Assembly (NCBI GenBank): GCA_021790935.1
Contig: JAJYFL010000004.1
Span: 27,142-91,141, forward strand
Direction: 5' to 3'
DNA length: 64,000 nt
Origin: a bacterium
GTDB taxonomy: Bacteria > Vulcanimicrobiota > Vulcanimicrobiia > Vulcanimicrobiales > Vulcanimicrobiaceae
Within the stretch, counting starts at the first letter, position 1. The number at the start of each line of letters is the position of its first letter. Under the pieces are notes generated by a model. It saw nothing but the letters and a program-made list of their open reading frames with translations, had not been told where the DNA came from and made no database searches. Both the position numbers and the translations under genes were made by a program. Shown in pieces: positions 11,275 to 28,158 of the stretch.

Positions 11275-11391
11275 CTAACCTTGCTCCTCGTTAAAGCAGA
11301 AGCCCCCGCCGGACGGGCGGGGGCTTCTGCTTGGTCGAATGATTATCGCGTTCTGCAGGGAGCAACCTCGACCGATCCGGACGACGGGCAT
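11275..11391 (-). CDS. leuA leader peptide
   Basis: A 38-residue ORF starting at an ATG eight bases after a -10 box and ending TAG two bases before the leuA GTG. It begins MPVVRIGRGCSLQNAIII, with tandem Val codons (GTC GTC) and three consecutive Ile codons (ATA ATC ATT) immediately before the hairpin at 11294-11332. Unusually, the frame runs through the hairpin to its stop, so ribosomes both reach the hairpin and could couple to leuA. Control by isoleucine/valine supply is inferred from codon content. Confidence 0.6.
   Translation of the reverse strand: MPVVRIGRGCSLQNAIIIRPSRSPRPSGGGFCFNEEQG
11294..11332 (-). terminator. leuA leader hairpin (attenuator)
   Basis: AAGCAGAAGCCCCCGCC pairs perfectly with its complement across the 5-base loop CGTCC, followed by a short T-poor run (TTTAACG). 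Lying between the leader control codons and leuA, it is a probable attenuator. The Ile-Ile-Ile codons end six bases before the left arm, so a stalled ribosome would cover the arm directly. Confidence 0.7.
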
Positions 11392-11399
11392 CTTCGACT

Positions 11400-11429
11400 A
11401 CGCTATCACGGCGGCGCACGGCCGGTCAA
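11400..11429 (-). promoter_or_regulatory. leuA promoter
   Basis: On the minus strand TTGACC (11429-11424), an 18-base spacer and TAGCGT (11405-11400) precede the leader ATG by exactly eight bases, predicting a leaderless transcript. Confidence 0.65.
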
Positions 11430-11432
11430 CGC

Positions 11433-11448
11433 ATTAACGAAGGTTAAT
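11433..11448. promoter_or_regulatory. TTAA-N6-TTAA box shared by leuA and proC promoters
   Basis: ATTAAC-GAAG-GTTAAT is a perfect 6-bp palindrome and also two TTAA cores 10 bases apart. It sits between the divergent -35 boxes, three bases from that of leuA and four from that of proC. Similar boxes lie upstream of the ilv (17363-17377) and thr (21418-21432) promoters. Confidence 0.6.
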
Positions 11449-11452
11449 CCAT

Positions 11453-11482
11453 TTGACAGCCGCACGTTTTCTCTGGTATGGA
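11453..11482 (+). promoter_or_regulatory. proC promoter
   Basis: TTGACA (11453-11458), an 18-base spacer and TATGGA (11477-11482) end eight bases before the proC ATG, predicting a leaderless proC mRNA. Confidence 0.65.
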
Positions 11483-11490
11483 GAGTCATC

Positions 11491-12285
11491 ATGGAAAACG
11501 TAGGAATCATCGGACTGGGAACGATCGGCACGGCCATCGCCGAGGGTCTGCACGCCGCGCTCCCGGATCTCGAGATTCTCGGGACGCGGCGCCAAGGCAC
11601 CATGCCGGCGTACGTAACACCGTGTGCCGGTAATCGCGAGTTGTTGCAACGGGCGCGGCTGGTCCTCTTCTGCATCAAGCCCCAGCACGCAACGGCGATC
11701 CTCGAGGACCTGCGTCCCGGACTCGGGCCCGAGCATCTCGTGGTTTCGACCTGTGCCGGGCTCGATATCGACACGCTCTACAAACATGCCGGTAACGCGA
11801 AGGTCGCGCGGGCGATGCCGAATCTTCCATGTCAGATCGGCGAAGGGATGACGGCGCTCTGCTTCCCGCCCGCCTGGACCGCCGCAGCGCGCGATCTCGT
11901 TACCCGTCTTTTCGATGCGATCGGCAAGACCGTCGTCGTCGAAGAACGGCATTTCGATGCCGTAACCGCGCTCAGCGGATGCGGGCCGGCGTACGTCTAT
12001 ACGATCATCGAGGCTCTAAGCGACGGCGGCGTGAAGCAAGGCCTGCCCAGGGATATCTCTAAGCTGCTCGCCGCGCAGACGGTTCTCGGCTCCGCGCAGC
12101 TCGTTTTGAGCACGCATCTTCACCCCGCGGAGCTGCGCGACCGCGTGGCCACGCCGGCCGGCTGCACGATCGACGCGCTCGCGTGCCTGGAGGACGGGCG
12201 TCTGCGGGGCACGCTGATCTCCGCGGTCGCGGCGGCGGCCGAACGGAGCGCGGTTCTCACGCGTATAGGAGGCTGTCGGAGTTGA
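11491..12285 (+). CDS. proC: Pyrroline-5-carboxylate reductase
   Basis: A 264-residue NADPH-dependent reductase for the last step of proline synthesis. The Rossmann motif is NVGIIGLGTIGTAIAEGL, followed by KPQHATAIL, ARAMPNLPCQIGEGMTALC and the substrate-site signature LSGCGPAYVYTIIEALSDGG; the tail has RDRVATPAGCTIDAL. The ATG at 11491 has no Shine-Dalgarno sequence but lies eight bases after a -10 box, so translation is probably leaderless. The final residues (IGGCRS) and stop are encoded by inverted-repeat element E2, so the element inserted at or near the natural end. Divergent from leuA with a shared TTAA box. Confidence 0.92.
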   Translation: MENVGIIGLGTIGTAIAEGLHAALPDLEILGTRRQGTMPAYVTPCAGNRELLQRARLVLFCIKPQHATAILEDLRPGLGPEHLVVSTCAGLDIDTLYKHAGNAKVARAMPNLPCQIGEGMTALCFPPAWTAAARDLVTRLFDAIGKTVVVEERHFDAVTALSGCGPAYVYTIIEALSDGGVKQGLPRDISKLLAAQTVLGSAQLVLSTHLHPAELRDRVATPAGCTIDALACLEDGRLRGTLISAVAAAAERSAVLTRIGGCRS

Positions 12286-14230: not shown

Positions 14231-15243
14231 ACGCGAAACTTCAACTCCTCGTCCTGCGGCGCCAGCCACGGCATCAGCGCCCGCAACCGTTCGCCGACCT
14301 GCTCGATCGGATGCGACCGCGCGGCTTCGCGGAACCGGTCGAATCCACCGGAGCCGGCCGCATGTTCTCGCACCCATTCGCGCGCGAAGCTCCCGTCCTG
14401 AATCTCGCCGAGCACCGCTCGCATGGCCTGGCGCACCTCTTCTCCGACGATGCGCGGTCCGCGCGTATAGTCGCCGTACTCGGCGGTGTTACTGATCCCC
14501 TCACGCATGCCACCGATACCCCGTTCGTGCATGAGATCGACGATCAGCTTGAGCTCGTGCAAACATTCGAAGTACGCCATCTCCGGCGCATAGCCCGATT
14601 CCACGAGCGTCTCAAAACCCGCCGTAACGAGCGACGAGACGCCGCCGCACAACACGGCCTGCTCTCCGAACAGATCGGTCTCGGTCTCGTCTTTGAAGGT
14701 CGTTTCCAGGATCCCCGCACGCCCGCCGCCGATGGCGCCGGCATACGCGAGCGCCAGCTCGCGCGTGTTGCCGGACGGATCTTGGTGTACGGCGATCAAG
14801 CAAGGGGCGCCGCGCCCTGCTTCATATTCAGAGCGCACGAGCCGCCCGGGGCTCTTCGGGGCGACCATGAACACGTTGGCGCTCTTCGGCGGGACGACGG
14901 TCCCGAAATGGATGGCGAACCCGTGTGCGAACGCAAGATAAGCGTTCGGGCGCAAACGGTCGCCGACGGAGTGCAAATAGACGGCCGGTTGTTCTTCGTC
15001 GGGAACCAACAGCATCACGACATCGGCCATCGCGGTTGCTTCCTCGACGCTCGCGTAGCGCAAGCCGTCTTCGCGTGCGATCGCTTCCGATCGCGAATGC
15101 GCACGCAAGCCTACGACGACGTCGGCACCGGAATCCTGCAGGTTACGCGCGTGGGCGCGCCCCTGGCTGCCATAGCCGATCACGGCAATCGTCTTGTTCG
15201 AGAGCACGCGGCGGTCGGCATCGCGGTCGTAAAATACTTTCAT
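14224..15243 (-). CDS. ilvC: Ketol-acid reductoisomerase, class I
   Basis: A 339-residue short (class I) enzyme converting acetolactate or acetohydroxybutyrate to dihydroxy acids. The NAD(P)H-binding motif is [17 protein letters not shown] with [10 protein letters not shown] as the cofactor-specificity loop, whose Arg and Ser residues suggest NADPH. Metal-binding acidic residues appear in [19 protein letters not shown] and the later [12 protein letters not shown]. The ATG overlaps the stop of the small ACT-domain gene (ATGA), and the 3' end overlaps ilvD. Confidence 0.95.
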
Positions 15244-15455
15244 GGGTTGTTCTCCTTGTCTTCCCGAGCGAGTTTGTCTATTTGCATACGCAGACGTGCG
15301 AGCGCCTCGGAGGGGCCGTCGAGGTGGATACGAACGCGAAACGAACCATCGCGCTGCAATGCTTCCGCACGCGTGTAGACGCAGCCGAAGCGATGCGCGA
15401 GATGAATGAGACGCGCGAGGATCCTACCGTCGCGTACGTCCAACGCTGCAATCAT
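15240..15455 (-). CDS. ilvN: Short ACT-domain regulatory subunit of acetolactate synthase
   Basis: A 71-residue protein with beta-alpha-beta pattern: [20 protein letters not shown], then [20 protein letters not shown] and a lysine-rich end. This resembles the single-ACT small subunits (IlvM type, about 85 residues) more than the 160-residue IlvN. It lies exactly between ilvB and ilvC with ATGA overlaps on both sides, which is the main reason for the call. The usual glycine-rich ACT loop is weak, so valine feedback is uncertain. Confidence 0.65.
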
Positions 15456-17152
15456 CGCTCCGCCTCCATCATCTCGTGCATCGCCTGGCCGGCCGGAACG
15501 ATCGGCCAAACGTTCTCCTCGGGATAGCAGGCGCAGTGCAGAAGCATTGCCGACGGATGCTCTATCAGCCGGTTGAGAGCGTCGGCGAGATCCTCCGGTA
15601 CCCGTACCGATTCGGCGCGTATCCCGTACGCGTGCGCGATCTCGCAGAACTCCGGGTTGTCGCTCAGGTTGGTCGCCGAATAACGGGCGTCGTAGAACAA
15701 CTGCTGCCATTGCCGCACCATACCGAGGTTGCGGTTGTCGATGAGCACGATTTTTACCGGCAGATCGTAGCGCCGAATCGTCGCGAGCTCCGCGAGCGAC
15801 ATCTGAAATCCACCATCTCCGACGATCGCCACCACCGGGCGCCCCCCAGGAACAAACGCCGCTCCGATCGCCGCGGGAAGGCCGAAACCCATCGTACCCA
15901 GTCCCGCAGAGGTCAGAAAATTGCGTGGATGCGTCGGGCGCGCGCGCTGCGCGGCCCACATTTGATGCTGGCCCACATCGGTCGCCACGATGGCGTCCGG
16001 CGCTAGCCGTTCGAAGAGTCCGCCGATTGCATCGGTAGCGCTGAGCCTCCCAGATTGAGATCGGTCGCGCGGTAGTGGTCCTCCGAGCGCGCGCACGCGC
16101 TCGCACCAGTCGTCGAACGTGGGAATCTGCTGCCCATCGAGCGCCGTAACCAATTCGCGGAGCGTTTCGCGTAGATCGCCGTGCAGGCACACGTCCGCGC
16201 GAACGATCTTTCCGAATTCGCTGCTGTCGATATCGGCGTGAACGATCTGCGCGCCGGGCGCGAAGCGATTGGCCGGCCCCGTCACGCGGTCGTCGAACCG
16301 CATGCCAAAAGCCAAGATGAGATCGGCCTGCGCGACGGCGAGATTGGCGGCTTTCCATCCGTGCATTCCGAGCATCCCGAGAAAGCGTCCGTCCTGCGGA
16401 TCGGCGGCGCCCAATCCGTTGATCGTCGCCGCATGCGGCAGGCGCACTCGCTCGCAAAAGCGCCGGTAGACCGCGCTCGCATCCGCAGCGCGCACGCCGC
16501 CGCCGATTATCGCAACGGGCTGCCGTGCGCTGCGAATCAATTTGACGGTCGCGGTAACCGCCGCGTGCGACGCACGGGGCAACGTCCTCGAAGCAAGCGA
16601 ACGAATCGGCGGCGAATCCTCCAGGACGATCGTTTTCAAGACATCGGTCGGCAGATCGAGTAACACGGGTCCCGGGCGCGGTCCGCGCGCCAATCGAAAC
16701 GCCGTCCGCAACGCGGGCAAGAGATCGCACGCGTTGCGCACGACGAGGTTGCGTTTGGTGATCGCATGCGTGATTGCGGCGATGTCGGCTTCTTGAAAGC
16801 CGTCGGTTCCCATCAGGGTAGTGCTGACCTGGCCCGTGATGGCGACGAGTGGAATGCTGTCCATCATCGCATCGAGGATCCCGGTAACGAAATTCGTGGC
16901 ACCGGGACCAGATGTCGCCACGCAGACGCCGACCTCGCCGCTAGCGCGTGCGTATCCGCCCGCTGCAAATACCGCCGCGGCCTCATGGCGAACCAGAACG
17001 TGGCGAAGCCGGTGTCCGAAGAGCGCGTCGTAAAGCGGCATGATCGCGCCGCCCGGGTAGCCGAAGATCACCTCGACGCCCTCGGCCCAAATCGCGTCAA
17101 GAACGACCCGCGCGCCGGTACGCTGGGCTCGCTCGGCTCGCTCCGCAATCAC
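15452..17152 (-). CDS. ilvB: Acetolactate synthase, large subunit
   Basis: A 566-residue ThDP enzyme, first common step of branched-chain amino-acid synthesis. EVIFGYPGGAIMPLYDAL begins the PYR domain, with catalytic Glu in VRHEAAAVFAAGGYAR. GFQEADIAAITHAITK supports acetolactate synthase rather than other ThDP enzymes. The Mg/ThDP motif is IVGDGGFQMSLAELATI...NRNLGMVRQWQ. The GTG at 17152 overlaps the stop of a short upstream reading frame (GTGA) and follows GGAAGAGGG. A 27-residue leader ORF and attenuator precede it. Confidence 0.95.
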   Translation of the reverse strand: MIAERAERAQRTGARVVLDAIWAEGVEVIFGYPGGAIMPLYDALFGHRLRHVLVRHEAAAVFAAGGYARASGEVGVCVATSGPGATNFVTGILDAMMDSIPLVAITGQVSTTLMGTDGFQEADIAAITHAITKRNLVVRNACDLLPALRTAFRLARGPRPGPVLLDLPTDVLKTIVLEDSPPIRSLASRTLPRASHAAVTATVKLIRSARQPVAIIGGGVRAADASAVYRRFCERVRLPHAATINGLGAADPQDGRFLGMLGMHGWKAANLAVAQADLILAFGMRFDDRVTGPANRFAPGAQIVHADIDSSEFGKIVRADVCLHGDLRETLRELVTALDGQQIPTFDDWCERVRALGGPLPRDRSQSGRLSATDAIGGLFERLAPDAIVATDVGQHQMWAAQRARPTHPRNFLTSAGLGTMGFGLPAAIGAAFVPGGRPVVAIVGDGGFQMSLAELATIRRYDLPVKIVLIDNRNLGMVRQWQQLFYDARYSATNLSDNPEFCEIAHAYGIRAESVRVPEDLADALNRLIEHPSAMLLHCACYPEENVWPIVPAGQAMHEMMEAER

Positions 17153-17227: not shown

Positions 17228-17311
17228 TTACGCAAAGGCCGATCTGCACGGATCCGAACGGAACCGCCTGGTAAGGAGTACGCGTACGAGAAATCGAGTC
17301 GCTGTCGGCAT
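17228..17311 (-). CDS. ilv operon leader peptide
   Basis: A 27-residue ORF starting eight bases after a -10 box. It begins MPTATRFLVRVLLTRRF: the control cluster is Leu-Val-Arg-Val-Leu-Leu, codons CTC GTA CGC GTA CTC CTT. The stop at 17230-17228 is about 24 bases before the terminator hairpin. Length, position and codon content are those of a classical branched-chain leader peptide. No Shine-Dalgarno sequence is present, consistent with leaderless translation. Confidence 0.75.
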   Translation of the reverse strand: MPTATRFLVRVLLTRRFRSDPCRSAFA

Positions 17312-17319
17312 GTGCAGGA

Positions 17320-17348
17320 ACCGTATCACGCGCGCCCCGGCGCGTCAA
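17320..17348 (-). promoter_or_regulatory. ilv operon promoter
   Basis: TTGACG (17348-17343), 17-base spacer and TACGGT (17325-17320) end eight bases before the leader ATG at 17311. The -10 is a moderate match, but the eight-base distance matches the leuA, thr and regulator promoters. Confidence 0.6.
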
Positions 17349-17362
17349 CGAATCCGGTTCAT

Positions 17363-17377
17363 ATTAATCGGGATTAA
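17363..17377 (-). promoter_or_regulatory. TTAA-N6-TTAA box upstream of ilv promoter
   Basis: TTAATCCCGATTAAT on the minus strand has TTAA cores 10 bases apart, ending 14 bases upstream of the ilv -35. It overlaps the last codons and stop of lysC (Asn-Val-Asn-Pro-Asp-stop). Confidence 0.55.
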
Positions 17378-18107: not shown

Positions 18108-19054
18108 AGGCGACTCACTGCGACCAAATCGCCGACGATGGCCGACGCCGTTTGCTCGCGCCCCGCTCCAGGACCGATCAAGGTTAGAGTACCGCATCCA
18201 CGCCCAATCACGCGAACCACGTTCTGCGCTCCCGTCGCCGCGGCCATCGGATCGGCAAGCGGCACGACGACGGGCTCGACCGCCGCGTCCAATCGAGTGC
18301 GATTCCCTTTGAGCGTGGCAACCAGACGCAACGCGCCGCCGCCGGCACGCGCGTCGCGGACCTGCCGGCGATCGATCGCCTCGATTCCGGTGCGCGCAAT
18401 GCTTTGCCACGGGAGCCAGCGCTCGAACGCGGCGTGAGCGAGCAGCGAGAGCTTTTGCGCGGTGTCGGTGCCGTTGAGATCGTTCGCGGGATCGGACTCG
18501 GCATATCCGTGGGCCCGCGCCGATTCGAGCGCGGCGCCGAAGTCGCAGCCGGCTTCCATTGCGACCAAGATGTAGTTGGTCGTGCCGTTCAGGATTCCGG
18601 ATATTTCGAGGATCTCTTCGCCGGCCAGCGCCGAGCGTAGCACGGAGAGCGCCGGAATAGCACCGCCCACGGCTGCGTCGAACAGCAGCTGGACGCCGCG
18701 ATCGCCGGCAAATGCGATCAGTTCCGGTCCGTGCGTTGCGATAAGCGCTTTGTTGGCAGAGACGACGTGCTTGCCGCAGGCTATCGCCTCCTTTACGAGA
18801 TCGTATGCCGGCTCGAGCCCGCCCATGCATTCGACGATCACGTCGGTGCGCGAGTCTCGAATAACATCCATGGCATCGGTGGTCACGTGCGCCATAACGG
18901 CCTGCGGGCGACGCGTCTTTCGAACGTCCCGCACGAGTACGCCCCGAAGCGAAAACGCCGCTACGTCGCGATCGTGCGCCTGTAGTAGACGCTCTGCTAC
19001 GCCGCTGCCGACGGTTCCGCAGCCAAGGAGACCGACGTTCAAGGCGCGCTTCAT
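18104..19054 (-). CDS. hom: Homoserine dehydrogenase without ACT domain
   Basis: A 316-residue enzyme reducing aspartate semialdehyde to homoserine. LNVGLLGCGTVGSGVAERLL is the nucleotide-binding motif; VVSANKALIATHG and the signature ISGILNGTTNYILV with YAESDPANDLNGTDTAQKL identify the catalytic core, including the catalytic Lys/Asp region. Typical bacterial Hom is about 430 residues with a C-terminal ACT domain for threonine inhibition; this one ends after the catalytic core. The start is the ATG at 19054, overlapping the thrB stop (ATGA). Confidence 0.92.
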   Translation of the reverse strand: MKRALNVGLLGCGTVGSGVAERLLQAHDRDVAAFSLRGVLVRDVRKTRRPQAVMAHVTTDAMDVIRDSRTDVIVECMGGLEPAYDLVKEAIACGKHVVSANKALIATHGPELIAFAGDRGVQLLFDAAVGGAIPALSVLRSALAGEEILEISGILNGTTNYILVAMEAGCDFGAALESARAHGYAESDPANDLNGTDTAQKLSLLAHAAFERWLPWQSIARTGIEAIDRRQVRDARAGGGALRLVATLKGNRTRLDAAVEPVVVPLADPMAAATGAQNVVRVIGRGCGTLTLIGPGAGREQTASAIVGDLVAVSRL

Positions 19055-19941
19055 GCCGTAGCCTCCGTAACGAGCAATCCTTGCGATGCGATCGCCGTGG
19101 GCACGATCCGCGCACCGACTCCGGCACGCCGAAAACAGGCAGCTACGCGATCCGGCGCGTCGCCGGCGCCACCCTCCGAGAGCAGCAACACGCTTGGCCC
19201 GGACCCGGAAAGCACGACGTGCACGCCGGCAGCCGATTGCCCCAGCGCCTCCGACAGGCCCGGGAAAAGCGCTGCCCGGTACGGTTGATGAACGCAGTCG
19301 CGAGTGGCGAGATCGAGACGTGCGAGGCGTCCGCTCGCGAGGCACGCCGCCAGCATGCTCGCGCGCTGCAAGGATCGGCCGACGTCGGCGCGCGCGTACG
19401 ATGCCGGAAGCGCCCGTCGGGCGGCAGCCGTATCCAACGGCCGATCGGGTACGACGAGCGTGCAGCGTAGCGCCTCCGGCGCCGGCAACGGCAACGCGCA
19501 GAGATGCGGCCCTTCTTGCAGCACGAAACACAAGCCGCCGTAAAGTGCCGCCGCTGCGTTATCGGCGTGACCTTCGGCCCGCACGAGCAAGCTCAACATC
19601 TCATCTCTCGAGACGGCGTCGCCCCGAGCTCGGTTCGCAATCGTCATACCGCAGAGCAAGGCCGCAGCGCTACTCCCCAAACCGGCTCCAAGCGGAATAT
19701 CGTTGTGAATATCGACTTCGAAGGCAAACGATTGTGGACCCTCGGCGATCAACGCCATTCCTGCGCGAACGCGCTCGGCCAACCCGCCATGCGTCGGAAG
19801 CTGCGAGCCGGTGACGCGTACCTGCAGCTGAGCACCGCCGGCTCTCGCGCGCGCCGTCATGCGCAGGTCGAGGGCCACTGCGACGGCATCGAAGCCCGAG
19901 CCGAGATTCGCGGAGCTAGCCGGGACGCTGACTTCGATCAT
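19051..19941 (-). CDS. thrB: Homoserine kinase
   Basis: A 296-residue GHMP kinase phosphorylating homoserine. VPASSANLGSGFDAVAVAL opens the fold, the ATP-binding loop is IPLGAGLGSSAAALLCG, and the C-terminal VVLSGSGPSVLLL is GHMP motif 3. The ATG overlaps the thrC stop and the 3' end overlaps the hom ATG, so expression is tightly coupled. No unusual feature. Confidence 0.93.
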   Translation of the reverse strand: MIEVSVPASSANLGSGFDAVAVALDLRMTARARAGGAQLQVRVTGSQLPTHGGLAERVRAGMALIAEGPQSFAFEVDIHNDIPLGAGLGSSAAALLCGMTIANRARGDAVSRDEMLSLLVRAEGHADNAAAALYGGLCFVLQEGPHLCALPLPAPEALRCTLVVPDRPLDTAAARRALPASYARADVGRSLQRASMLAACLASGRLARLDLATRDCVHQPYRAALFPGLSEALGQSAAGVHVVLSGSGPSVLLLSEGGAGDAPDRVAACFRRAGVGARIVPTAIASQGLLVTEATA

Positions 19942-21206
19942 CGAAGCGCCTCCGCGATCGCGCGTTCCAGCGACGCCATATCGCCGGCAACGCGGCGTAA
20001 CGGATTCGCTAACGTCTTGCTAGGATCGCCGTGGTAGCGCTCGATGCTCGCTACGTCTTTAAGGCTCGACCCGGTAAGAAGCGCGACGACGTCGGCGGCT
20101 TCGTCGATCGTGCCGCGCTCGCGTAACGCCAAGGCGCCCGCCAGCGTTGCGGCCGAAGCGGGCTCGCACGCCAGCCCATCGCGCGCGAGCACGGCACGCG
20201 CTTCGGCAATCCGATCGTCCTCGATTGCGATCGCGGTGCCGCCAGTCGCATGCAGAGCGCGCAGCGCCGGACGCCAGGAGACCGGATTGCCGATTTTGAT
20301 CGCGGTCGCGAACGTCGTGGCATGCACCGGGACGAGCGGCTCGTTCTGCTGCCATGCGCGCACGAATGGCGCCGCACCTGCAGCTTGCACGACGGCGATT
20401 CGGGGCACGCGCTCCGCCAAACCGAGCGCTTGCGCTTGCGCAAATCCTTGCGCGAGCGCGACGCAATGCCCGAGATTGCCGCCCGGAACGATCACCCAGT
20501 CGGGGACCCGCCACCCACGGGATTCGAGCAATTCGAACGCCACGGTCTTCTGTCCCTCGCGCCGGAACGGATTGAGGGAATTGACGAGATAGACGGCGCC
20601 GCGTAACGCGAGCTCACGCGCGGCCTGCATCGCAACGTCGAAGTCGCCGTCGATGCCGAGCGCGATCGCGCCGGCATCGAGCGCCTGTGCGAGCTTCGAT
20701 GTCGGCACGTGCCCCGCAGGTAGGAGTACTACCGCCGGCAACCCCGCGCGCGCTGCATAGACGGCCAAACTCGCCGAAGTATTCCCCGTGCTCGCGCACG
20801 CCAGAACCTTTGCGCCGGCGACTCGCGCCCGGGTGACGGCGACGGTCATCCCAGCGTCTTTGTACGAACCTGTCGGGTTGCAACCGAGATTCTTGACCGA
20901 AAGTCCCTCGAGCCCGCTCCAGGCCGCCGAGCGTTCCGCAGGCAACTCCGGAGCGTTCCCTTCTTGAAGCGTCACGATCTGCGAATCGTTCACGGGCGGC
21001 AAGAGCTCGCGAAATCGCCAAACCCCGCTCCGTTCGTGCAATGCATGCGATGTGAGCCTCGACCGGAACACCACGCGCGCGTCGCGCGGCAGCGTGAGGC
21101 CTCGGTCGTACGTGACGTTAAGCACGTCACCGCATGAGGCACACGGCATGCATTCCGATCCGTCCGGCGCATTTGTCGCGCACGTCCCGCACGATAAGAC
21201 CAGCAT
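19938..21206 (-). CDS. thrC: Threonine synthase
   Basis: A 422-residue PLP enzyme converting phosphohomoserine to threonine. It starts with a small cysteine cluster (CGTCATN...CMPCASCG), a rubredoxin-like knuckle seen in one threonine synthase branch. The PLP lysine is in NPTGSYKDAGMT, followed by ASTGNTSASLAVYAARAGL and the phosphate-loop PGGNLGHCVALAQG. The start is the ATG at 21206, preceded by GAGGAGCG; an upstream start at 21281 would lie inside the leader. First structural gene of thrC-thrB-hom-lysC, behind a leader peptide and terminator. Confidence 0.93.
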   Translation of the reverse strand: MLVLSCGTCATNAPDGSECMPCASCGDVLNVTYDRGLTLPRDARVVFRSRLTSHALHERSGVWRFRELLPPVNDSQIVTLQEGNAPELPAERSAAWSGLEGLSVKNLGCNPTGSYKDAGMTVAVTRARVAGAKVLACASTGNTSASLAVYAARAGLPAVVLLPAGHVPTSKLAQALDAGAIALGIDGDFDVAMQAARELALRGAVYLVNSLNPFRREGQKTVAFELLESRGWRVPDWVIVPGGNLGHCVALAQGFAQAQALGLAERVPRIAVVQAAGAAPFVRAWQQNEPLVPVHATTFATAIKIGNPVSWRPALRALHATGGTAIAIEDDRIAEARAVLARDGLACEPASAATLAGALALRERGTIDEAADVVALLTGSSLKDVASIERYHGDPSKTLANPLRRVAGDMASLERAIAEALR

Positions 21207-21221
21207 CGGGTATCGCTCCTC

Positions 21222-21256
21222 TATAAAACGGCCCTCACCGTCTCGGTGAGGGCCGT
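21222..21256 (-). terminator. thr operon attenuator hairpin
   Basis: ACGGCCCTCACCG and its exact complement form a 13-bp stem with the loop AGA, followed by TTTTATAG. It lies 25 bases after the leader stop and 16 bases before the thrC ATG. Confidence 0.8.
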
Positions 21257-21281
21257 CGTCGACTGCTACTACTTCCTGCAC

Positions 21282-21365
21282 TTACGACAATAGCACGCTC
21301 ATCGAGCTCCAAAAGGCGCTCGTAGACATCGTCTGCAAAGTGCTAATCATCGCGGCTGCGTACAT
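21282..21365 (-). CDS. thr operon leader peptide
   Basis: A 27-residue ORF beginning MYAAAMISTLQTMSTSAFW, eight bases after a -10 box and with no Shine-Dalgarno sequence. It has four Met, three Thr and one Ile codon; the cluster ATG ATT AGC ACT TTG CAG ACG ATG TCT ACG holds most of them. It has the same length as the ilv leader. It is followed by an intrinsic terminator. Control by Thr/Met/Ile availability is inferred. Confidence 0.65.
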   Translation of the reverse strand: MYAAAMISTLQTMSTSAFWSSMSVLLS

Positions 21366-21373
21366 GTGAGGCT

Positions 21374-21402
21374 ACCCTAGCATGCTACCGGTACGGTGTC
21401 AA
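21374..21402 (-). promoter_or_regulatory. thr operon promoter
   Basis: A perfect TTGACA (21402-21397), 17-base spacer and TAGGGT (21379-21374), ending eight bases before the leader ATG at 21365. Confidence 0.75.
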
Positions 21403-21417
21403 TCGTTCCACGGCGGT

Positions 21418-21432
21418 ATTAAATCATATTAA
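21418..21432 (-). promoter_or_regulatory. TTAA-N6-TTAA box upstream of thr promoter
   Basis: TTAATATGATTTAAT on the minus strand, with TTAA cores 10 bases apart, 15 bases upstream of the thr -35 and just after the stop of the regulator gene. Confidence 0.55.
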
Positions 21433-21441
21433 CGATCTCGC

Positions 21442-22722
21442 CTACCGCACGAACAGATAGCCTTGGTTCGGAATCGTCAGGATGTAACGAGGATTGGCGG
21501 GATCCTCCTCGATCTTCTTCCGGAGGTTGTGCATGTGGACGCGCAGCGCCGCGAGTTCGTCCTTACCGTCCGAACCAAATAGGCAACGCGCTGCCTCCTC
21601 CGCTTCGACGACGCGCCCGACGTTATCGACGAGCACCTTGAGCAACGTCGCTTGGCGCACTCCTAAACGCACTTCGCGGCCATTGACCCGCAGCTTCCGC
21701 AACTTCAGATCGAACAGTATCGACGCCGCAGCCGGGAGCGTGCTGCCCGTAACGAACGCTTCGTGCAGGGCCTGTTCGGCTACGGCCGCCTCGTGCTCCT
21801 GAAGCAGCAGTGAAATCGTGACGTTGCTGTCCGTAAAATGGAGGACCGTGATATCACGCTCCCGGAGCGCGGCAAAGACTTTGCAGAAGACACCGACCGT
21901 GCTTCTGATCCCACTTCCAACGACGCACACTTTCGCGCAATGGGTCGTGGCGTGCGAGTGTAGCGAGAGTTCTGCAGCGATGTCTTGCGCGAGATCTACG
22001 CGATCCGCGTCGACCGTGAACCGCATTCGCTTGGGAAAGAACTGCAACATCTCGAGCGACACGCCGCGTGCCGCAAGCTGCTCGACCATCCGCGTCCGCT
22101 GCCTCCGCCACCGATCGCCGTCGTCGTGCGTCGGGCGCACGCTTACGAATGCAGCCCCCGTCGATATTGTGATAGACGTAACTGGCTTCGACCGTTCTTC
22201 GAATGCGTCATCTCGAACGATCGTCCCGCGGTTTTCAACAATGCTGCGGATTTCGTAGGGAACGCCCAACGCACGTGCCCGCTCGGCCGCGACTGGCGGA
22301 AGCGCTCCGGCGCGCAGGTCCGCCAGTTCCATCAGCTCCATGTAGCTTGCGAATTCGACGGGGGTCGCCGTCGGCACGCGTTCCGGATCCGCAGACATTA
22401 CGCCATGCGCGTCGGCGAACACGATGACGCGTGCCGACTCGAACGTAGCGGCGAGCGCCATCGCCTCCTCCTGACCGCCTCCGACCAGGAGCGGGATCCC
22501 GCTGCGCGCTAGCTCGTCGAAGGATCCTACCGCGAAATGATCTGGAAGCCGCATCGACGCGTAGCCCCGCTGTGCAAGCGCATCGGCGACGACGGCGGGC
22601 GATGCGCAGACTACGATAACCATCGCTCCACCGTCCCGAAGGTCGGCGATTCGCACGACGATTGCGTCCGTTAACCGCGCACTTTGCACGACTGGGCGCC
22701 CGAAGGTGACGACGTTAACCAT
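21442..22722 (-). CDS. Degenerate aspartokinase-ACT-ACT fused to OmpR-type winged helix
   Basis: A 426-residue protein with no family name I know. Residues 1-165 follow the aspartokinase fold (FADAHGVMSADPERVPTAT and MELADLRAGALPPVAAERA align with the DVDGV...ADPR and LASLGAKVLHPRA regions), but the N-terminal KFGGTS motif has become TFGRPVV and the fold is shortened, so catalysis is unlikely. Residues about 181-250 and 262-325 are two ACT domains; the second has KVCVVGSGIRSTVGVFCKVF, nearly canonical for aspartokinase. Residues about 338-426 are an OmpR/PhoB C-terminal winged helix (LRVHMHNLRKKIEEDP, YILTIPNQGYLFVR). It lies directly upstream of the thr operon and has its own Thr/Ile/Met leader. 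Likely an amino-acid-sensing DNA-binding regulator; ligand and targets are inferred. Confidence 0.8.
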   Translation of the reverse strand: MVNVVTFGRPVVQSARLTDAIVVRIADLRDGGAMVIVVCASPAVVADALAQRGYASMRLPDHFAVGSFDELARSGIPLLVGGGQEEAMALAATFESARVIVFADAHGVMSADPERVPTATPVEFASYMELMELADLRAGALPPVAAERARALGVPYEIRSIVENRGTIVRDDAFEERSKPVTSITISTGAAFVSVRPTHDDGDRWRRQRTRMVEQLAARGVSLEMLQFFPKRMRFTVDADRVDLAQDIAAELSLHSHATTHCAKVCVVGSGIRSTVGVFCKVFAALRERDITVLHFTDSNVTISLLLQEHEAAVAEQALHEAFVTGSTLPAAASILFDLKLRKLRVNGREVRLGVRQATLLKVLVDNVGRVVEAEEAARCLFGSDGKDELAALRVHMHNLRKKIEEDPANPRYILTIPNQGYLFVR

Positions 22723-22768: not shown

Positions 22769-22808
22769 AAAACGAAGAAGCCCCCGCCGAACCGGCGGGG
22801 GCTTCTTC
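22769..22808 (-). terminator. Attenuator hairpin of the ACT regulator gene
   Basis: GAAGAAGCCCCCGCCG and its exact complement form a 16-bp stem with loop GTT, followed by GTTTT. It lies between the leader ORF and the regulator start. Confidence 0.8.
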
Positions 22809-22826
22809 TGCTGTGAACCGCTGTCT

Positions 22827-22904
22827 CTACGCAGTCGCCATCCATCGCCGGTCCGATACGGAACCGAGCATCGTAATGGTAGCAAGCGTAAAAGCACTGG
22901 ACAT
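22827..22904 (-). CDS. Leader peptide of the ACT regulator gene
   Basis: A 25-residue ORF beginning MSSAFTLATITMLGS, eight bases after a -10 box. The cluster ACG CTT GCT ACC ATT ACG ATG reads Thr-Leu-Ala-Thr-Ile-Thr-Met, precisely the aspartate-family end products. Its stop is 18 bases before the terminator hairpin. It implies that the regulator is itself attenuated when these amino acids are plentiful. Confidence 0.7.
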   Translation of the reverse strand: MSSAFTLATITMLGSVSDRRWMATA

Positions 22905-22912
22905 TTCTGGAT

Positions 22913-22942
22913 ACTCTACCATGTGAGACCGGCAGGCGTCAA
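22913..22942 (-). promoter_or_regulatory. Promoter of the ACT regulator gene
   Basis: TTGACG (22942-22937), 18-base spacer and TAGAGT (22918-22913), eight bases before the leader ATG. No TTAA-N6-TTAA box was seen upstream, unlike the thr, ilv and leuA/proC promoters. Confidence 0.65.
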
Positions 22943-23329: not shown

Positions 23330-25531
23330 ATGATCGCTTCGCCACGCCGGCAAGAACTGGCGAACGAGCTGCGGCGTGCAGGGCGCCCGATAACGTTGTG
23401 CGCTCCGCCGGGCTACGGCAAATCAGCGTTTGCCGCGATGCTGCGCGATAACGGCGTGCACACCCCCATCGAGGAGTCCCGTGCGCGTCCGAAGCGGAGC
23501 GGAGCCGTGATCGTCGGACCTTCGCAACTTGCCTTCGACGAAGTTGAGATGCGCCTGCTCTTCGCCCCCTTCGGCCTCTCGCGAGCCGCACTCGGGCAGA
23601 TCGTGGAGTTGACGCGTGGCTGGCCCGCCGGGGCGCTTTACTTCCGTCGCCTGGTCCATCTGGGACTCCTCGATGAGGCGCTGACCGACCTCCGCTCGGC
23701 GGCATACGACGATCTCTACGACTACCTCGAGGAACAGGTGCTGCGGCCGTGCACGCGACGGACGCGTGGAGCGCTGCTGCTTCGAACCGCCTGCGAGCGC
23801 GATGAAATCCTGCTCGTTGAGGATCCGGCGTCACGGGTGACAGACGTGCCGATGCTGCTCTGCGATGCCGATGGGCACAAGTGGGTACATCCGTTGCTGA
23901 AGGCCGCCGTCCGAGCGCGGCACGGAACAGCACTGATCGCGTACTGTCTGCGGCGTTCGTTCGCGTCCGAGCGGCACGGTAAGCCGCTGCTCGCGGCGCG
24001 CTGGGCGATCGTAGTTGACTATTTCGAGCGCGGGGCGAGGTTGTTCGATGGGATCGCGCTCGGCGAAGACGACCGAGCCAGGGCGGCGACATTGCCCTTT
24101 GTGGTACTCTTGCAGCACCCACGGCTGTGGACGGCGGCGCTCAAAGAACGAGAGGCGCGCAGCACGCCACACGAACGATTGGCCGAAGCCACGGCAATCG
24201 CCCAAGTCGCCTCGCAGACGCTGTCGCCTGCGGCGCACGCGACCGTGATCGCCTGCGTCGCGCGCGCCCACGCGGCGATGGGAAACGTGACGGCCGCAGT
24301 GGCAGCATGCGAAGACCCGCGGATCGCGGACCACGCATCGTCCGAGGTTCGTGCGCTGACGCTCTATCGTTCCGTGCTGCTCGATCGCCTGCACGGCGGT
24401 CGAGCAGCGGAGATACGGGCGGAATTGCAGGCCTTGGCGGAAGAATGCTCGGCGGTCGTCGCCGTGGCACACGCGCAGTTGGCGCGCAATGCTGCGTTGC
24501 AGGGCGCCCAGGGTATCGCGGACGAGCATTGGACTATTGCGTGCGCGATCGCGCAGGCATTGCCGGATGCGGCGTTGGTATACGAGGTGCGCGCCGAGCG
24601 GGCGCTCGTGACGACGTTCCTCGGAGGCGACGTGCCGCGCATCCCTATCCCGCCAGGAGAGGACGAATCGAGCATTCGTGCGCAAGCACTCGCCGCACTC
24701 CTGCAACTCACCCGCTCGCCGACGAATGGCGCGCGGCAGATAGAGGATGCTTTGCGCTTGGCGTTTGAAATCGGCGACCGCTTCGTCGAAGATGCGGCGC
24801 GTATGCTGGCAAACCGCGAGCGGGGCCGTGGAACGATCGAGATAGCGCTTTTCGGAGGTGAGGTTCGAAAGAACGGCATCGCGCTAGCCTGCTCGCAGCG
24901 AGAATGTGCCGTGCTCTTTACGCTGGCCGCCGCCCCCGATCGGACCATGAACGCAGAGCGGTTAGCCGAAAGCATATGGACCTATCACGACAGCCAGTCC
25001 TCGCGGCGGGCCCTCAAGGTCGCCGTCTCGCGGCTGCGCGCGCGTACGGAAGATCCTGCGCTGGTGAGTTTCCGGGACGGCGGCTATGTGTTGTCTGCGA
25101 CCGTTACGATAGACCTGGCGGATCTTACCGCCGCCTTGAGTGCTGCCACAGCAGACGGCAACTACGAGCGACTTTGGCGATCCCGGAACCTGGTGAAGGC
25201 GGTTCGTCCGCCGCGCCTGCGCGACGCCGAATGGTTTGCCCCGATCGAGGCGCACTTGCGCGCCCTCAGTCACCAACTTGCGCGGGCGCTGGCAGATTCC
25301 CCGCGTGCGCGCCACAATGCGCAAGAACTGAGCGCGCTCGGCCTGGACCTGTTGGCTGCCGATCCCTGCGACGAGTACGGCTGCGAGCTGGTGCTCCGCA
25401 GCTATGCATGGGAAGCAGACGGACGAGCAGCCGTCGTCGCGTACGAACGCTTTGCACAGGTGGTGCGCGACGAACTCGGCACCGTGCCGTCGCCCGCGCT
25501 ACGTGCCCTTGCGGAGCGCTTCCGGCAATGA
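23330..25531 (+). CDS. P-loop ATPase regulator with C-terminal winged helix and BTAD domain
   Basis: A 733-residue protein. A Walker A motif (CAPPGYGKSAFAA) lies at residues ~24-36, a middle helical region (about 250-480) looks repeat-like, and the C-terminal ~220 residues resemble a SARP: a winged helix (FGGEVRKNGIALACSQRECA ... RRALKVAVSRLRAR) followed by a bacterial transcriptional activator domain (ELSALGLDLLAADPCDEYG, AYERFAQVVRDELGTVPSPA). No Walker B is obvious. This is the inverted version of the usual SARP order, with the ATPase first. The stop overlaps the next gene's ATG. Target genes are unknown. Confidence 0.65.
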   Translation: MIASPRRQELANELRRAGRPITLCAPPGYGKSAFAAMLRDNGVHTPIEESRARPKRSGAVIVGPSQLAFDEVEMRLLFAPFGLSRAALGQIVELTRGWPAGALYFRRLVHLGLLDEALTDLRSAAYDDLYDYLEEQVLRPCTRRTRGALLLRTACERDEILLVEDPASRVTDVPMLLCDADGHKWVHPLLKAAVRARHGTALIAYCLRRSFASERHGKPLLAARWAIVVDYFERGARLFDGIALGEDDRARAATLPFVVLLQHPRLWTAALKEREARSTPHERLAEATAIAQVASQTLSPAAHATVIACVARAHAAMGNVTAAVAACEDPRIADHASSEVRALTLYRSVLLDRLHGGRAAEIRAELQALAEECSAVVAVAHAQLARNAALQGAQGIADEHWTIACAIAQALPDAALVYEVRAERALVTTFLGGDVPRIPIPPGEDESSIRAQALAALLQLTRSPTNGARQIEDALRLAFEIGDRFVEDAARMLANRERGRGTIEIALFGGEVRKNGIALACSQRECAVLFTLAAAPDRTMNAERLAESIWTYHDSQSSRRALKVAVSRLRARTEDPALVSFRDGGYVLSATVTIDLADLTAALSAATADGNYERLWRSRNLVKAVRPPRLRDAEWFAPIEAHLRALSHQLARALADSPRARHNAQELSALGLDLLAADPCDEYGCELVLRSYAWEADGRAAVVAYERFAQVVRDELGTVPSPALRALAERFRQ

Positions 25532-28158
25532 TCGTTACGTCGCCACACGTCGTCGAACGCGACCTCATCGATGCGCTCGTCGCCTGCGACGCCAAAGTCT
25601 ATCGATTGATCGCTCCAGCGGGCTTCGGCAAGTCCGTCATGGCGGCGCAGATCGCAAGCCGCTTTCCGAAGAACGCCTCCTGCGATTGTCGCGGAGTACG
25701 GGATACCATCGAGCTGACGCGGCGCTTGATCCACGCCTTCTCGATCCTTGCGGGCGAACGTGGCCGGCGAATCAAAGACGAGGAGGCGACTCTCGCATTT
25801 TCGAACATCGACGATCGGCGAGCCTACCTGGAACAGATCTGGGATGTGTTGCCAGAATGCGGCGTCTTGATCGTCGAAAACTTCGAGGATATCGGCGAGC
25901 GACCGGAGGCGCTTGCCCTATTGGCAGCGCTGTTCGCGAAGCGCCCGCGCGGGAGGCTCGTACTGTGCAGTCGCGGCGACCTTCCCGTGCGCTGGGGCGA
26001 TGCGGTATTCCCGCACGAAAACCTCGCCGTACGCGAACGGCACCTACGCTTTTCGAAGCGCGAGTTCGCGGCGCTCTTTGACGACACTGCAGTTTCTTCC
26101 GTGGAGATCGCTCGCACGTACAGATGGACTGGCGGGTGGCCGTTCGCGGCGGCTCAGGCGGCACGATACATGCGTGACGGCGGTGACATAACGGGCCTCA
26201 TGGCGAAAGGAACGTCGCCGCCGGAGCTGGCCGATATCCTGCTAACGCAGTTGTTCGGCTCGCTGCCGGATGACCTGCGTGCGGGAGTGGTGTGCTGCGC
26301 CGCGATCGAACGGGCCCGCGAGGAAGATCTTCCCGGCACCGGCGATGCGCTCGCAACGCGGGCCTTCGCCGATCGCCTGGTGAGCGCGTTTCCCTTCATT
26401 ACGCGCCGCAACGATGGGATCTACGAGATGCATCCGATAGCGCGTACGGCGCTCGCGCGCCTGCATGGAACGGCGTACGACCAGATAGTGGCAGACACCG
26501 TCGCACGCGCGCGGCACCGGGGCGACCATCTGCGATGCGCGGAGCTGCATCTGCAATGTGGCAACGACTACGAAGCCGCACGCGCCCTCGTTCGCCTGAA
26601 GACGGACATGATGGATATTCCAACGCCCCGGTACCTCGCGGTACTCGAACGTTTAGGGCGAACCGTCGTCGTCCACTTCCCAAAGCTTTGGGCGCTGTCG
26701 TCAATCTATTGGCAGAATCGCTTCGGCACGCTCGCGCGGGAGGTTCGCGATATCGTCTTGCGGCTGCCCCAGAGCGTTCCCCTGGGGACCCGTGCCGCAT
26801 GCATTGCGATTGCGTGCTATCACCTCTCCGATCGCGGAGAATGGCAAGAGGCATCTCGCCTGCTCGATTCGTTCGAGGCGTTACCCCTCCCCAGAGGGAA
26901 AGCGGCCGAGTGCGACGATGCAGGCGCGTATATTCCGCTCTTTCGTGCGTACGCTGCGGTCAGCAACGGGAAGGAGTACGATGATGCAGAACTGTGGCGC
27001 CGTCACGGCTCTGCGATCTCGCGTTCCAACATTGCCCTGACCGAACATTATACAACGGAAGCGCGCGTTGCTATCTTGCGCGGACGGCCCGAACTCGTTG
27101 CAGCAGCGCTCGAGCGAATGGTCGCCGCGGCTCGCCGAACTCGCTACCCCGTACACGAACGAATCGCGCTCGGCAAGGCGATACAAACCGCATGGCTGCT
27201 CGGCGACGACAGAGCGCTCGAGCGCTATCGTACGGATCTCCTGGCGCTGCTGTCAGATCCTACGGTTCCGTACGATCTCGCCGCACATGAGGCGCAGCAA
27301 ATGCTTGAGGCTTCGTGGGGTTTGCCGTGGAGCGGCATGGAGCGCACGAGGGGCGATGCGTTTTTCCTACGTTTGATGTACGCCGCTGCCGTTCCGGAAG
27401 AGAACGCCGCGTTGGCTGCGCTTGAAGAGGCGCATCGAATCGCCACTGCGACACGTGGCTTCTGGGGGGTCACCCTCGCATATACCGCCCTGGCGTCCTT
27501 CGATCCCGAACGAATCGCGTTGCTCGACGAGGCTTTGAGCTATGCCGAGCGCAGCGACTTTCCTGCATATCGAAGCGCCATCGCGTCGGCCCGAAACGGT
27601 CACGCTTCGTGCGGTTCTCTGACGCGCTTCGCGCAACGGTTCCGCGAAGCCGGAGTACGCGCGCGTACGTGCGTACACATCGATCTCGTGTCGGGGTGCC
27701 TACGCCGCAACGGCGAGGTGCTTCGCCTGGGGAAGCAGGAGCGCGAGCTCGTCTACCTGCTCGCGGCCCGCGGCCAGCCCGTTCAACGCATGGAACTGGC
27801 CGACACGCTCTGGCCGGGGCGCGACGAAGACGCCGCATTCAACGCGTTGAAAGTTTGCGTGAACCGAATACGCCGGCGCACGCGCAGCCAGGAGTTGATC
27901 GTGGCGACGGCCGGCGATTATGCGCTCTCCCCGCAGGTCGCATGCGTCGATCTCGACGTCGCGGAACACTATGCCGAGCTTGCCAAGCGCGGCTGCTTTG
28001 CCGCTATGCGCGCGGGTAAGAAGTTATTGCGCGAGGTCCCCGATGGACTCGACATGCCCGCATCGTGGGGCCTCCGGGCGGCGGAACGCGTGCGCGTTAT
28101 GCGCGCACGCGCGTCAAGAGCCGCGTCTGTCCCGCTCGCGGCTCAGTGGGCATACTGA
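25528..28158 (+). CDS. STAND-type (MalT-like) ATPase regulator with C-terminal winged helix
   Basis: An 876-residue protein. Walker A is LIAPAGFGKSVMAAQ (~residues 31-45), Walker B is GVLIVENFEDI, and CSRGDLPVRWGD plus WTGGWPFAAAQAARY are the sensor and winged-helix-linker motifs of MalT/LAL-type STAND ATPases. A long alpha-helical repeat region follows. Instead of a LuxR HTH, the C-terminus has a winged helix (HIDLVSGCLRRNGEVLRLGK, FNALKVCVNRIRRR). The ATG overlaps the stop of the preceding regulator, so the two are made together and may form one complex. Signal and targets are unknown. Confidence 0.65.
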   Translation: MIVTSPHVVERDLIDALVACDAKVYRLIAPAGFGKSVMAAQIASRFPKNASCDCRGVRDTIELTRRLIHAFSILAGERGRRIKDEEATLAFSNIDDRRAYLEQIWDVLPECGVLIVENFEDIGERPEALALLAALFAKRPRGRLVLCSRGDLPVRWGDAVFPHENLAVRERHLRFSKREFAALFDDTAVSSVEIARTYRWTGGWPFAAAQAARYMRDGGDITGLMAKGTSPPELADILLTQLFGSLPDDLRAGVVCCAAIERAREEDLPGTGDALATRAFADRLVSAFPFITRRNDGIYEMHPIARTALARLHGTAYDQIVADTVARARHRGDHLRCAELHLQCGNDYEAARALVRLKTDMMDIPTPRYLAVLERLGRTVVVHFPKLWALSSIYWQNRFGTLAREVRDIVLRLPQSVPLGTRAACIAIACYHLSDRGEWQEASRLLDSFEALPLPRGKAAECDDAGAYIPLFRAYAAVSNGKEYDDAELWRRHGSAISRSNIALTEHYTTEARVAILRGRPELVAAALERMVAAARRTRYPVHERIALGKAIQTAWLLGDDRALERYRTDLLALLSDPTVPYDLAAHEAQQMLEASWGLPWSGMERTRGDAFFLRLMYAAAVPEENAALAALEEAHRIATATRGFWGVTLAYTALASFDPERIALLDEALSYAERSDFPAYRSAIASARNGHASCGSLTRFAQRFREAGVRARTCVHIDLVSGCLRRNGEVLRLGKQERELVYLLAARGQPVQRMELADTLWPGRDEDAAFNALKVCVNRIRRRTRSQELIVATAGDYALSPQVACVDLDVAEHYAELAKRGCFAAMRAGKKLLREVPDGLDMPASWGLRAAERVRVMRARASRAASVPLAAQWAY

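Follow-up and report, generated by a model that had tools for sequence, protein, structure and literature searches.

A candidate amino-acid-responsive transcription factor descended from aspartokinase, with an ACT pair and an OmpR-type winged helix, in Eremiobacterota

The window, a stretch of 64,000 nucleotides of bacterial DNA, carries on its reverse strand a single intact open frame of 426 codons whose product combines an aspartokinase (AK) remnant, a pair of ACT domains and a winged helix. We refer to this protein as the regulator. Next in line are thrC, thrB, hom and an AK gene, which confirms the position directly upstream of the thr operon given in the initial annotation. Beyond these lie ilvB and the divergent proC and leuA (Table 1). 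The best model for the acetolactate synthase large subunit is isozyme 2, which we take to be valine-insensitive. The small subunit, at 15240-15455 (-), is very short (71 aa) and has only a sub-cut-off ACT_5 match. On the other side of the regulator gene, two large frames at 23330-28158 (+) are divergent from it; by eye they resemble ATP-binding regulators, and both appear to have a winged helix and a BTAD-like part.

Table 1. Features of the regulator, thr, ilv, leuA and proC regions (window coordinates; spacing is counted from the second TTAA to the -35 box).
Feature	Position	Strand	Remarks
Promoter-like TTGACG-18-TAGAGT of regulator gene	22913..22942	-	aligned in three sister genomes
Leader peptide MSSAFTLATITMLGSVSDRRWMATA (stop) before regulator gene	22827..22904	-	Thr/Ile-type
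Attenuator-like hairpin before regulator gene	22771..22808	-	fold z -4.7
Pseudo-aspartokinase/ACT/winged-helix gene (426 aa)	21442..22722	-	ORF, Pfam, NCBIfam; relatives
Aspartokinase remnant, residues 1-177	22192..22722	-	KFGG and GRGGSD absent; ADxxGVMSADP segment retained
ACT1-ACT2 pair, residues 178-326	21745..22191	-	ACT2 most constrained (dN/dS 0.00-0.02)
OmpR-type winged helix, residues 348-424	21451..21681	-	recognition-helix segment nearly invariant (26 aligned members)
Candidate operator TTAATATGATTTAATA	21417..21432	-	upstream of thr operon promoter
Promoter-like TTGACA-17-TAGGGT of thr operon	21374..21402	-	
thr leader peptide MISTLQTMSTSAFWSSMSVLLS (stop)	21282..21350	-	3 Thr; 5 and 4 Thr in two sister genomes
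Attenuator-like hairpin before thrC	21227..21257	-	fold z -3.5
thrC, threonine synthase	19938..21206	-	start likely ATG 21206 (ORF opens at 21281)
thrB, homoserine kinase	19051..19941	-	
hom, homoserine dehydrogenase, 313 aa	18104..19045	-	no ACT
Aspartokinase, 248 aa	17364..18110	-	KFGG and GRGGSD present; no ACT
Candidate operator TTAATCCCGATTAATA	17362..17377	-	15 nt from ilvB promoter
ilvB promoter TTGACG-17-TACGGT	17320-17348	-	
ilv leader peptide MPTATRFLVRVLLTRRFRSDPCRSAFA (stop)	17228..17311	-	then hairpin before ilvB
ilvB/ilvG-type acetolactate synthase large subunit	15452..17152	-	
proC	11491..12285	+	
proC promoter TTGACA-18-TATGGA	11453-11482	+	
Candidate operator TTAACCTTCGTTAAT	11433..11448		between divergent leuA (-) and proC (+) promoters
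leuA promoter TTGACC-18-TAGCGT	11400-11429	-	
leuA leader ORF MPVVRIGRGCSLQNAIIIRPS...	11275..11391	-	38 codons; unusually extends through hairpin to leuA
leuA, 389 aa	10103..11272	-	ends after HCS_D2; no C-terminal regulatory domain

The initial annotation had described a protein that keeps the AK fold and two ACT domains and carries a C-terminal winged helix. Three Pfam domains match the regulator above their cut-offs, namely: AA_kinase (residues 66-144), ACT_9 (265-323; 50.8 bits against a cut-off of 27) and Trans_reg_C (PF00486, 348-424; 60.1 bits against 26.2). Neither a receiver domain (PF00072) nor a PLP-enzyme domain gives a Pfam match at E<=1. The best NCBIfam models are aspartate kinases, which score far under their cut-offs (NF006068, 150.2 of 474 bits; TIGR00656, 125.3 of 402). 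Sequence matches in the PDB are to AKs over residues ~77-327 and to KdpE-like regulators over residues 320-425, and the latter, together with the Trans_reg_C score, uphold the winged helix. An AlphaFold2 model built from a 26-row alignment has a mean pLDDT of 77.8 and a pTM of 0.47, too low to fix the spatial order of the domains. Its residues 1 to ~172 superpose on amino-acid-kinase folds and residues 181-325 on the regulatory ACT pairs of AKs (best rmsd 2.1 Å, with an AK regulatory subunit); the best 50 Foldseek rows are all AKs or their regulatory parts. Both the kinase fold and the ACT pair are thus kept in the predicted structure. Upon re-ranking by fold, the rows are taken up by kinase and ACT folds, with no winged-helix chain among them; since those folds fill the rows, this does not bear on the winged helix.

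Aligned to AKs, the regulator has TFGR in place of KFGG, does not retain GRGGSD and has a deletion of ~70 residues between the two positions. Its ADxxGVMSADP segment is the counterpart of TDVDG..ADP in AKs. KFGG and GRGG[ST]D are absent from all 17 long family members, whereas both are present in 27/27 AKs (from 26 relatives and the window's genome). The loss of the catalytic KFGG motif noted at the outset therefore extends to the long members as a group, and kinase activity has presumably been lost. The ACT2 stretch H-x-TDSN-[IV]-T-[IV]-S is common to the regulator and all 27 AKs of relatives. Both the regulator and the relatives' AKs depart from the D-x-P-G loop that ACT1 has in the C. glutamicum enzyme, so the ligand is not readable from the residues. 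The window's genome encodes two further AKs of this type, i.e. the ACT-less enzyme of the thr operon and an ACT-bearing one that adjoins frames resembling dapB, asd and dapA (neighbours assigned by eye).

The same fusion is found well beyond the window. Orthologues with 95% and 90% identity occur in both other genomes of the genus (3/3 in all), and G027 has a relative with 38% identity. By profile search the family is present in 8/99 family-level and 8/149 phylum-level genomes, namely: the sisters G000, G001 and G002, together with G027, G071, G073, G103 and G110 (hereafter, carriers). Ten more profile-search matches stop short of the winged helix and are ordinary AKs. A protein database search, limited in scoring to the 7998 candidates with most words in common, listed 50 matches, of which 31 belong to the family; two are the window's own protein, leaving at least 29 further proteins. 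A scan of named genomes with two peptide patterns, both in the winged helix, gave at least six family loci (four labelled Candidatus Eremiobacterota, from which the phylum name used here is taken, and two ‘bacterium’); it missed the G103 member and is thus not exhaustive. In that scan 43 further loci have the winged helix alone in common.

Among the three sister genomes, residues 1-87 evolve fastest (dN/dS 0.18-0.34), followed by residues 88-177 (0.04-0.14), the winged helix (0.04-0.11) and ACT1 (0.03-0.06). Purifying selection is strongest on ACT2 (0.00-0.02), which as the best-guarded segment behaves as expected of a putative sensor. A database copy of the window's protein, P0003, has 339 aa and lacks the first 87 residues; we favour the long form of 426 aa because both selection and the relatives agree with it. 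Across 26 members the winged-helix segment AALRVHxHNLRKKIE hardly varies, and a common operator is predicted from this.

In a tree of 27 regulators and 28 AKs computed without the winged helix, the regulators form one clade (100/97); 10 of the 37 regulator rows were omitted to limit the size of the set. A rooted tree was built with 13/37 regulators, 17/27 AKs and 5 outgroup AKs, of which one is from Pseudonocardia and the other four come from different families of the phylum. Here, the regulators and the AKs of their own family, order and class stand together against the outgroup (100/100), and the 13 regulators are again one clade (100/100), nested among the AKs of the class (inner fork 93/92). 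The long P0012, P0013, P0014 and P0016 form one group (100/100) with the members that lack a kinase part altogether (at trp and metX loci) and those in which it is shrunken, so the kinase part was shed later.

The gene neighbourhoods, read for the eight carriers, differ between genera. In the window's genus the regulator gene is followed by thrC-thrB-hom-AK. The G027 member sits between sat and a gene resembling UDP-sulfoquinovose synthase, with cysH close by, and that of G110 lies after a pabB-like gene and across from sat, cysI and cysH. The member of G071 is the final gene of a trp operon, where its ORF overlaps trpA (trpG and trpA assigned by eye), and that of G073 is on a 3.9-kb contig, 3′ of the trpB end (by eye). 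The G103 member is directly 3′ of metX. Two fragments were seen by eye on the same stretch: one before metX (L111 8232-8516), like the end of O-acetylhomoserine sulfhydrylase, and a second, metX-like one after the regulator (L111 10826-11200). Taken together, the domain content, the lost catalytic motifs, the trees, the gene context and the candidate operator described next lend good support to the earlier proposal of a transcription factor evolved from the enzyme.

Ahead of the thrC promoter, TTAATA-N4-TTAATA is conserved among the three sister genomes. Allowing up to one mismatch, this sequence occurs in three places in the 2.65-Mb genome, i.e. at thr, ilv and pstB, and TTAATN5TTAATA, with one mismatch allowed, has 2 matches in the window vs. 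0.03 in shuffles. It should be noted that the thr site is training data, as the motif was first noticed there in the window's genus. The operator form TTAATANNNNTTAATA was dropped as too narrow. The four promoters singled out for DNA-binding assays in the initial annotation (thr, ilv, leuA and proC) all carry the shared candidate operator.

A composite pattern that adds a -35 box, TTAAN6TTAA-N3..20-TTGAC, was searched in 99 genomes. It has 18 matches in 7/8 carriers vs. 9 matches in 9/91 non-carriers (Fisher test by genome, p 5.6e-6), and the reversed control has 1 and 10, respectively. The three sisters are near-copies; counted by genus, the pattern is present in 4/5 carrier genera, G027 being without it. 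Among the carrier matches, 17/18 lie at thr, ilv, leuA, proC, trpD, cys or his, and one lies before the G110 regulator gene. All 13 matches of the sisters are at thr, ilv, leuA or proC (the ilv site of G002, present on two contigs, is counted twice). In G071 and G073 the match is between trpG and trpD (placed in G073 by 392/424 identical flank bases), and in G103 matches precede the his genes and the cys operon, where CysI lies ~0.8 kb downstream of the site with no gene identified in between. Inspected by eye, 1/9 non-carrier matches is at an amino-acid or sulfur gene (cysI-like, in G007), another, with TTAAG repeats, precedes a pstS-like gene in G090, and the remainder lie elsewhere.

The looser pattern TTAAYN5TTAAY gives 44 matches in the 8 carriers vs. 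111 in the 91 non-carriers (means of 5.5 and 1.2 per genome; Mann-Whitney p 1.7e-6, or 1.1e-4 with one row per carrier genus), sites identical on both strands being counted twice; its reversed control gives 9 and 162 (means of 1.1 and 1.8). The carrier matches reduce to 32 separate places; amino-acid genes or the regulator gene account for 21, and 11 are elsewhere. Among the 21 are cysH in G027 and G110 and, in G071 as well as G073, trpE and DAHP synthase. The DAHP synthase site is at most 20 nt from the start codon, with no recognised -35 box behind it. Because carriers share a promoter-upstream motif and most relatives without the gene do not, the regulator likely controls amino-acid operons.

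Three of the 11 places elsewhere are the Pho-box-like pstB sites of the three sisters. TTAAT repeats stand before the pstB-like gene in L149 5210-6130 (G000 C11, about 21110), as they do in the two other sisters. We dropped pstB as a target of the regulator: its third half-site, and the site at the pstS-like gene of a non-carrier, point to a Pho box. As the pstB sites look like Pho boxes, these bacteria probably have another OmpR-type regulator with half-sites of a similar kind. Separately, a conserved TTAATGC[AG]GCTTAAC is found in G071 and G073 near a gene for a 257-aa membrane protein (L223, about 1383, and L224, about 1517).

A promoter scan finds 6 sites vs. 0.8 expected. We measured the spacing from the second TTAA of the candidate operator to the -35 box, the latter picked by a simple score. 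In the three sister genomes it is 16, 16 and 16 nt for thr, 15, 15 and 15 for ilv, 4, 4 and 4 for leuA, and 5, 5 and 14 for proC. Elsewhere it is 5 nt for both trpE and trpD, 15 nt for cysH of G027 (a second, imperfect site), 5 nt for cys and 16 nt for his of G103, 6 nt for the regulator gene of G110 and 8 nt for cysH of G110, the one promoter outside both classes. Thus 10/11 promoters fall into two classes, 4-6 and 14-16 nt, that differ by one helical turn (binomial 1.3e-4 against a uniform 3-20 nt, chosen post hoc and restricted to sites with a recognisable promoter). Sites with no recognised promoter stand outside this count, namely: pstB; the DAHP synthase and 257-aa membrane protein sites of G071 and G073; the trpE site of G073; G027 L041 404, 5098 and 12034, and C222; G103 C24, C38 and C127; and G110 C61. 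None of the 11 measured sites overlaps the -10 box or the start.

Both the regulator gene and thrC are preceded by predicted leader-peptide attenuators, each an ORF with end-product codons and then a hairpin. When folded, the two hairpins beat 200/200 and 199/200 shuffles, and Rfam Thr_leader (RF00506) matches 22771-22900 with 31.7 bits (E 0.0078), under its gathering score of 55. The Rfam matches to rnk_leader and ncS011 were set aside as weak. A short leader ORF follows 8/11 operator-linked promoters: Thr-rich before thrC, Leu/Val before ilvB, Val/Ile before leuA, Cys before cysH of G110 and the cys operon of G103, with three Trp before trpD of G071, and Val-rich before the G110 regulator gene. 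The his leader of G103 (L111 300-1240) has five successive His codons, then a hairpin and HisG (Pfam), behind the same candidate operator. For proC, trpE and cysH of G027, no leader ORF was found among the 11 promoters inspected. By eye, a hairpin follows the leader at each of the seven leader promoters inspected, i.e. those other than trpD; a simple terminator scan, with 5 sites vs. 5.4 expected, lends the hairpins no support. Pathway-specific attenuation would thus appear to be layered with the shared candidate operator.

The initial annotation had further proposed that the regulator takes over feedback by transcription, given that the AK and homoserine dehydrogenase (Hom) of the thr operon lack ACT domains. 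The latter holds, as neither gives a Pfam ACT match. Full-length LeuA has a regulatory C-terminal domain, which is absent here, so that AK, Hom and LeuA are all without a Pfam-detectable regulatory domain; with the ilv subunits, these enzymes fit a putative shift of feedback to transcription. The idea that an ACT-less Hom is special to the window's genus was rejected, since none of 9 relatives' Homs has a Pfam ACT match. Of the 27 hom loci inspected outside the genus, two of which are flagged as truncated by the end of the locus, none has an AK gene within ~1.5 kb of hom. The proposal is therefore supported in part. It is weakened by the nine ACT-less Homs, by the use of the family at cys, trp and met loci in other genera, and by the leader-peptide attenuators that appear to serve these operons too.

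We consider it somewhat probable that the regulator is an AK descendant without catalytic motifs which acts as an amino-acid-responsive transcription factor at TTAAY-N5-TTAAY sites immediately 5′ of amino-acid biosynthesis promoters. It is probably an activator tuned by its ACT pair, a reading based mainly on the two spacing classes one helical turn apart. A regulator that represses from the same sites, alone or with a corepressor amino acid, is on balance unlikely. Biosynthetic operons are commonly repressed by their end products, as by TyrR- or ArgR-like regulators, and at those sites that are just 4-6 nt from the -35 box a bound dimer could get in the way of polymerase; but no measured site covers the -10 box or the start, and the spacing classes, together with the switch from 5 to 14 nt at proC, point to polymerase contact. 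The Thr-type leader would also boost synthesis of the regulator under threonine shortage, which fits an activator better.

That the sites belong to another OmpR/Pho-type regulator, this protein having other targets, seems improbable. The repeats before pstB in the sisters and before the pstS-like gene of G090 speak for it, but in non-carriers the motif is no commoner than its backwards control, few composite matches there (1/9) are at amino-acid or sulfur genes, and carrier sites fall at the pathway adjoining the regulator gene (thr, cys, trp). It is very improbable that the protein serves mainly as a regulatory subunit lending its ACT pair to the ACT-less AK of the thr operon next to it. AK regulatory subunits consisting of an ACT pair alone do exist, as the structure matches show, but the winged helix is kept in 26/26 aligned members, none of the trp and cys loci read has an AK gene next to the regulator, and the kinase part is missing altogether from some members. 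As for a decaying pseudogene or an assembly error fusing two genes, the shortened kinase part and the fast evolution of the first 87 residues could suggest it, but its probability is next to nil: the fusion recurs in separate assemblies and other genera and dN/dS is at most 0.34 in every segment, by which sequencing error and pseudogene are ruled out.

For the activator, we infer DNA binding, activation, the ligand and the direction of response as follows. The ACT pair would bind an end-product amino acid, with Thr, a branched-chain amino acid and Lys as first candidates; sensing is here suggested by homology and the constraint on ACT2. The winged helices of a dimer would bind the two TTAA half-sites, and from there, 4-6 or 14-16 nt ahead of the -35 box and on the same helix face, the protein would help RNA polymerase to start. 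Ligand binding would weaken this help, and the Thr-type leader may raise synthesis of the regulator when charged Thr-tRNA is short. In the window's genus the predicted regulon is thr, ilv, leuA and proC.

In a wider reading, to which we give about an even chance, the family would be a new class of global amino-acid regulator that arose once in Eremiobacterota, when a feedback-inhibited AK lost catalysis, kept its ACT sensor and gained an OmpR-type winged helix. Its descendants would have been handed on to the circuits of thr/ilv/leu, cys, trp/aro and his while keeping a single conserved operator, and some would have dropped the kinase part; the regulon enzymes, here without allosteric domains, would have had their feedback moved from enzyme to promoter. 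If true, this would be a clear case of an enzyme's allosteric module carried whole into a transcription factor, with the intermediate stages (long form, shrunken kinase, kinase-less) persisting in relatives. It would suggest a route by which enzyme feedback is traded for transcriptional feedback, and the candidate operator and regulon form a testable prediction in this phylum. In the open-access literature we found no paper on a fusion or regulator of this kind and, in one narrow search, none on the regulation of amino-acid synthesis in this phylum.

Among known systems, the regulator shares with the monofunctional, ACT-bearing aspartate kinases (TIGR00656/LysC type) the kinase fold, the ACT1-ACT2 arrangement, the ACT2 stretch and its grouping in the trees; it differs from them in the absence of KFGG and GRGGSD, the deletion of ~70 residues, the added winged helix and scores far below the model cut-offs. 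With the OmpR/PhoB/KdpE response regulators it has the same winged helix (PF00486), KdpE being the best PDB sequence match there, but an ACT pair and a kinase remnant stand in place of the receiver domain. TyrR and Lrp are ACT- or RAM-domain regulators that couple a small-molecule-binding domain to DNA binding in amino-acid control; they have other DNA-binding folds and no AK ancestry. The candidate operator, like that of PhoP, is a pair of like half-sites, but these are 10 bp apart here, compared with the direct 7-bp repeats and 4-bp spacer given for PhoP (PMC4832192). The principle of joining an enzyme fold of amino-acid metabolism to a winged helix is that of the MocR/GabR regulators (PMC6677901), which have an aminotransferase fold with a GntR-type helix; the protein described here is built instead from an aspartokinase/ACT part and an OmpR-type helix.
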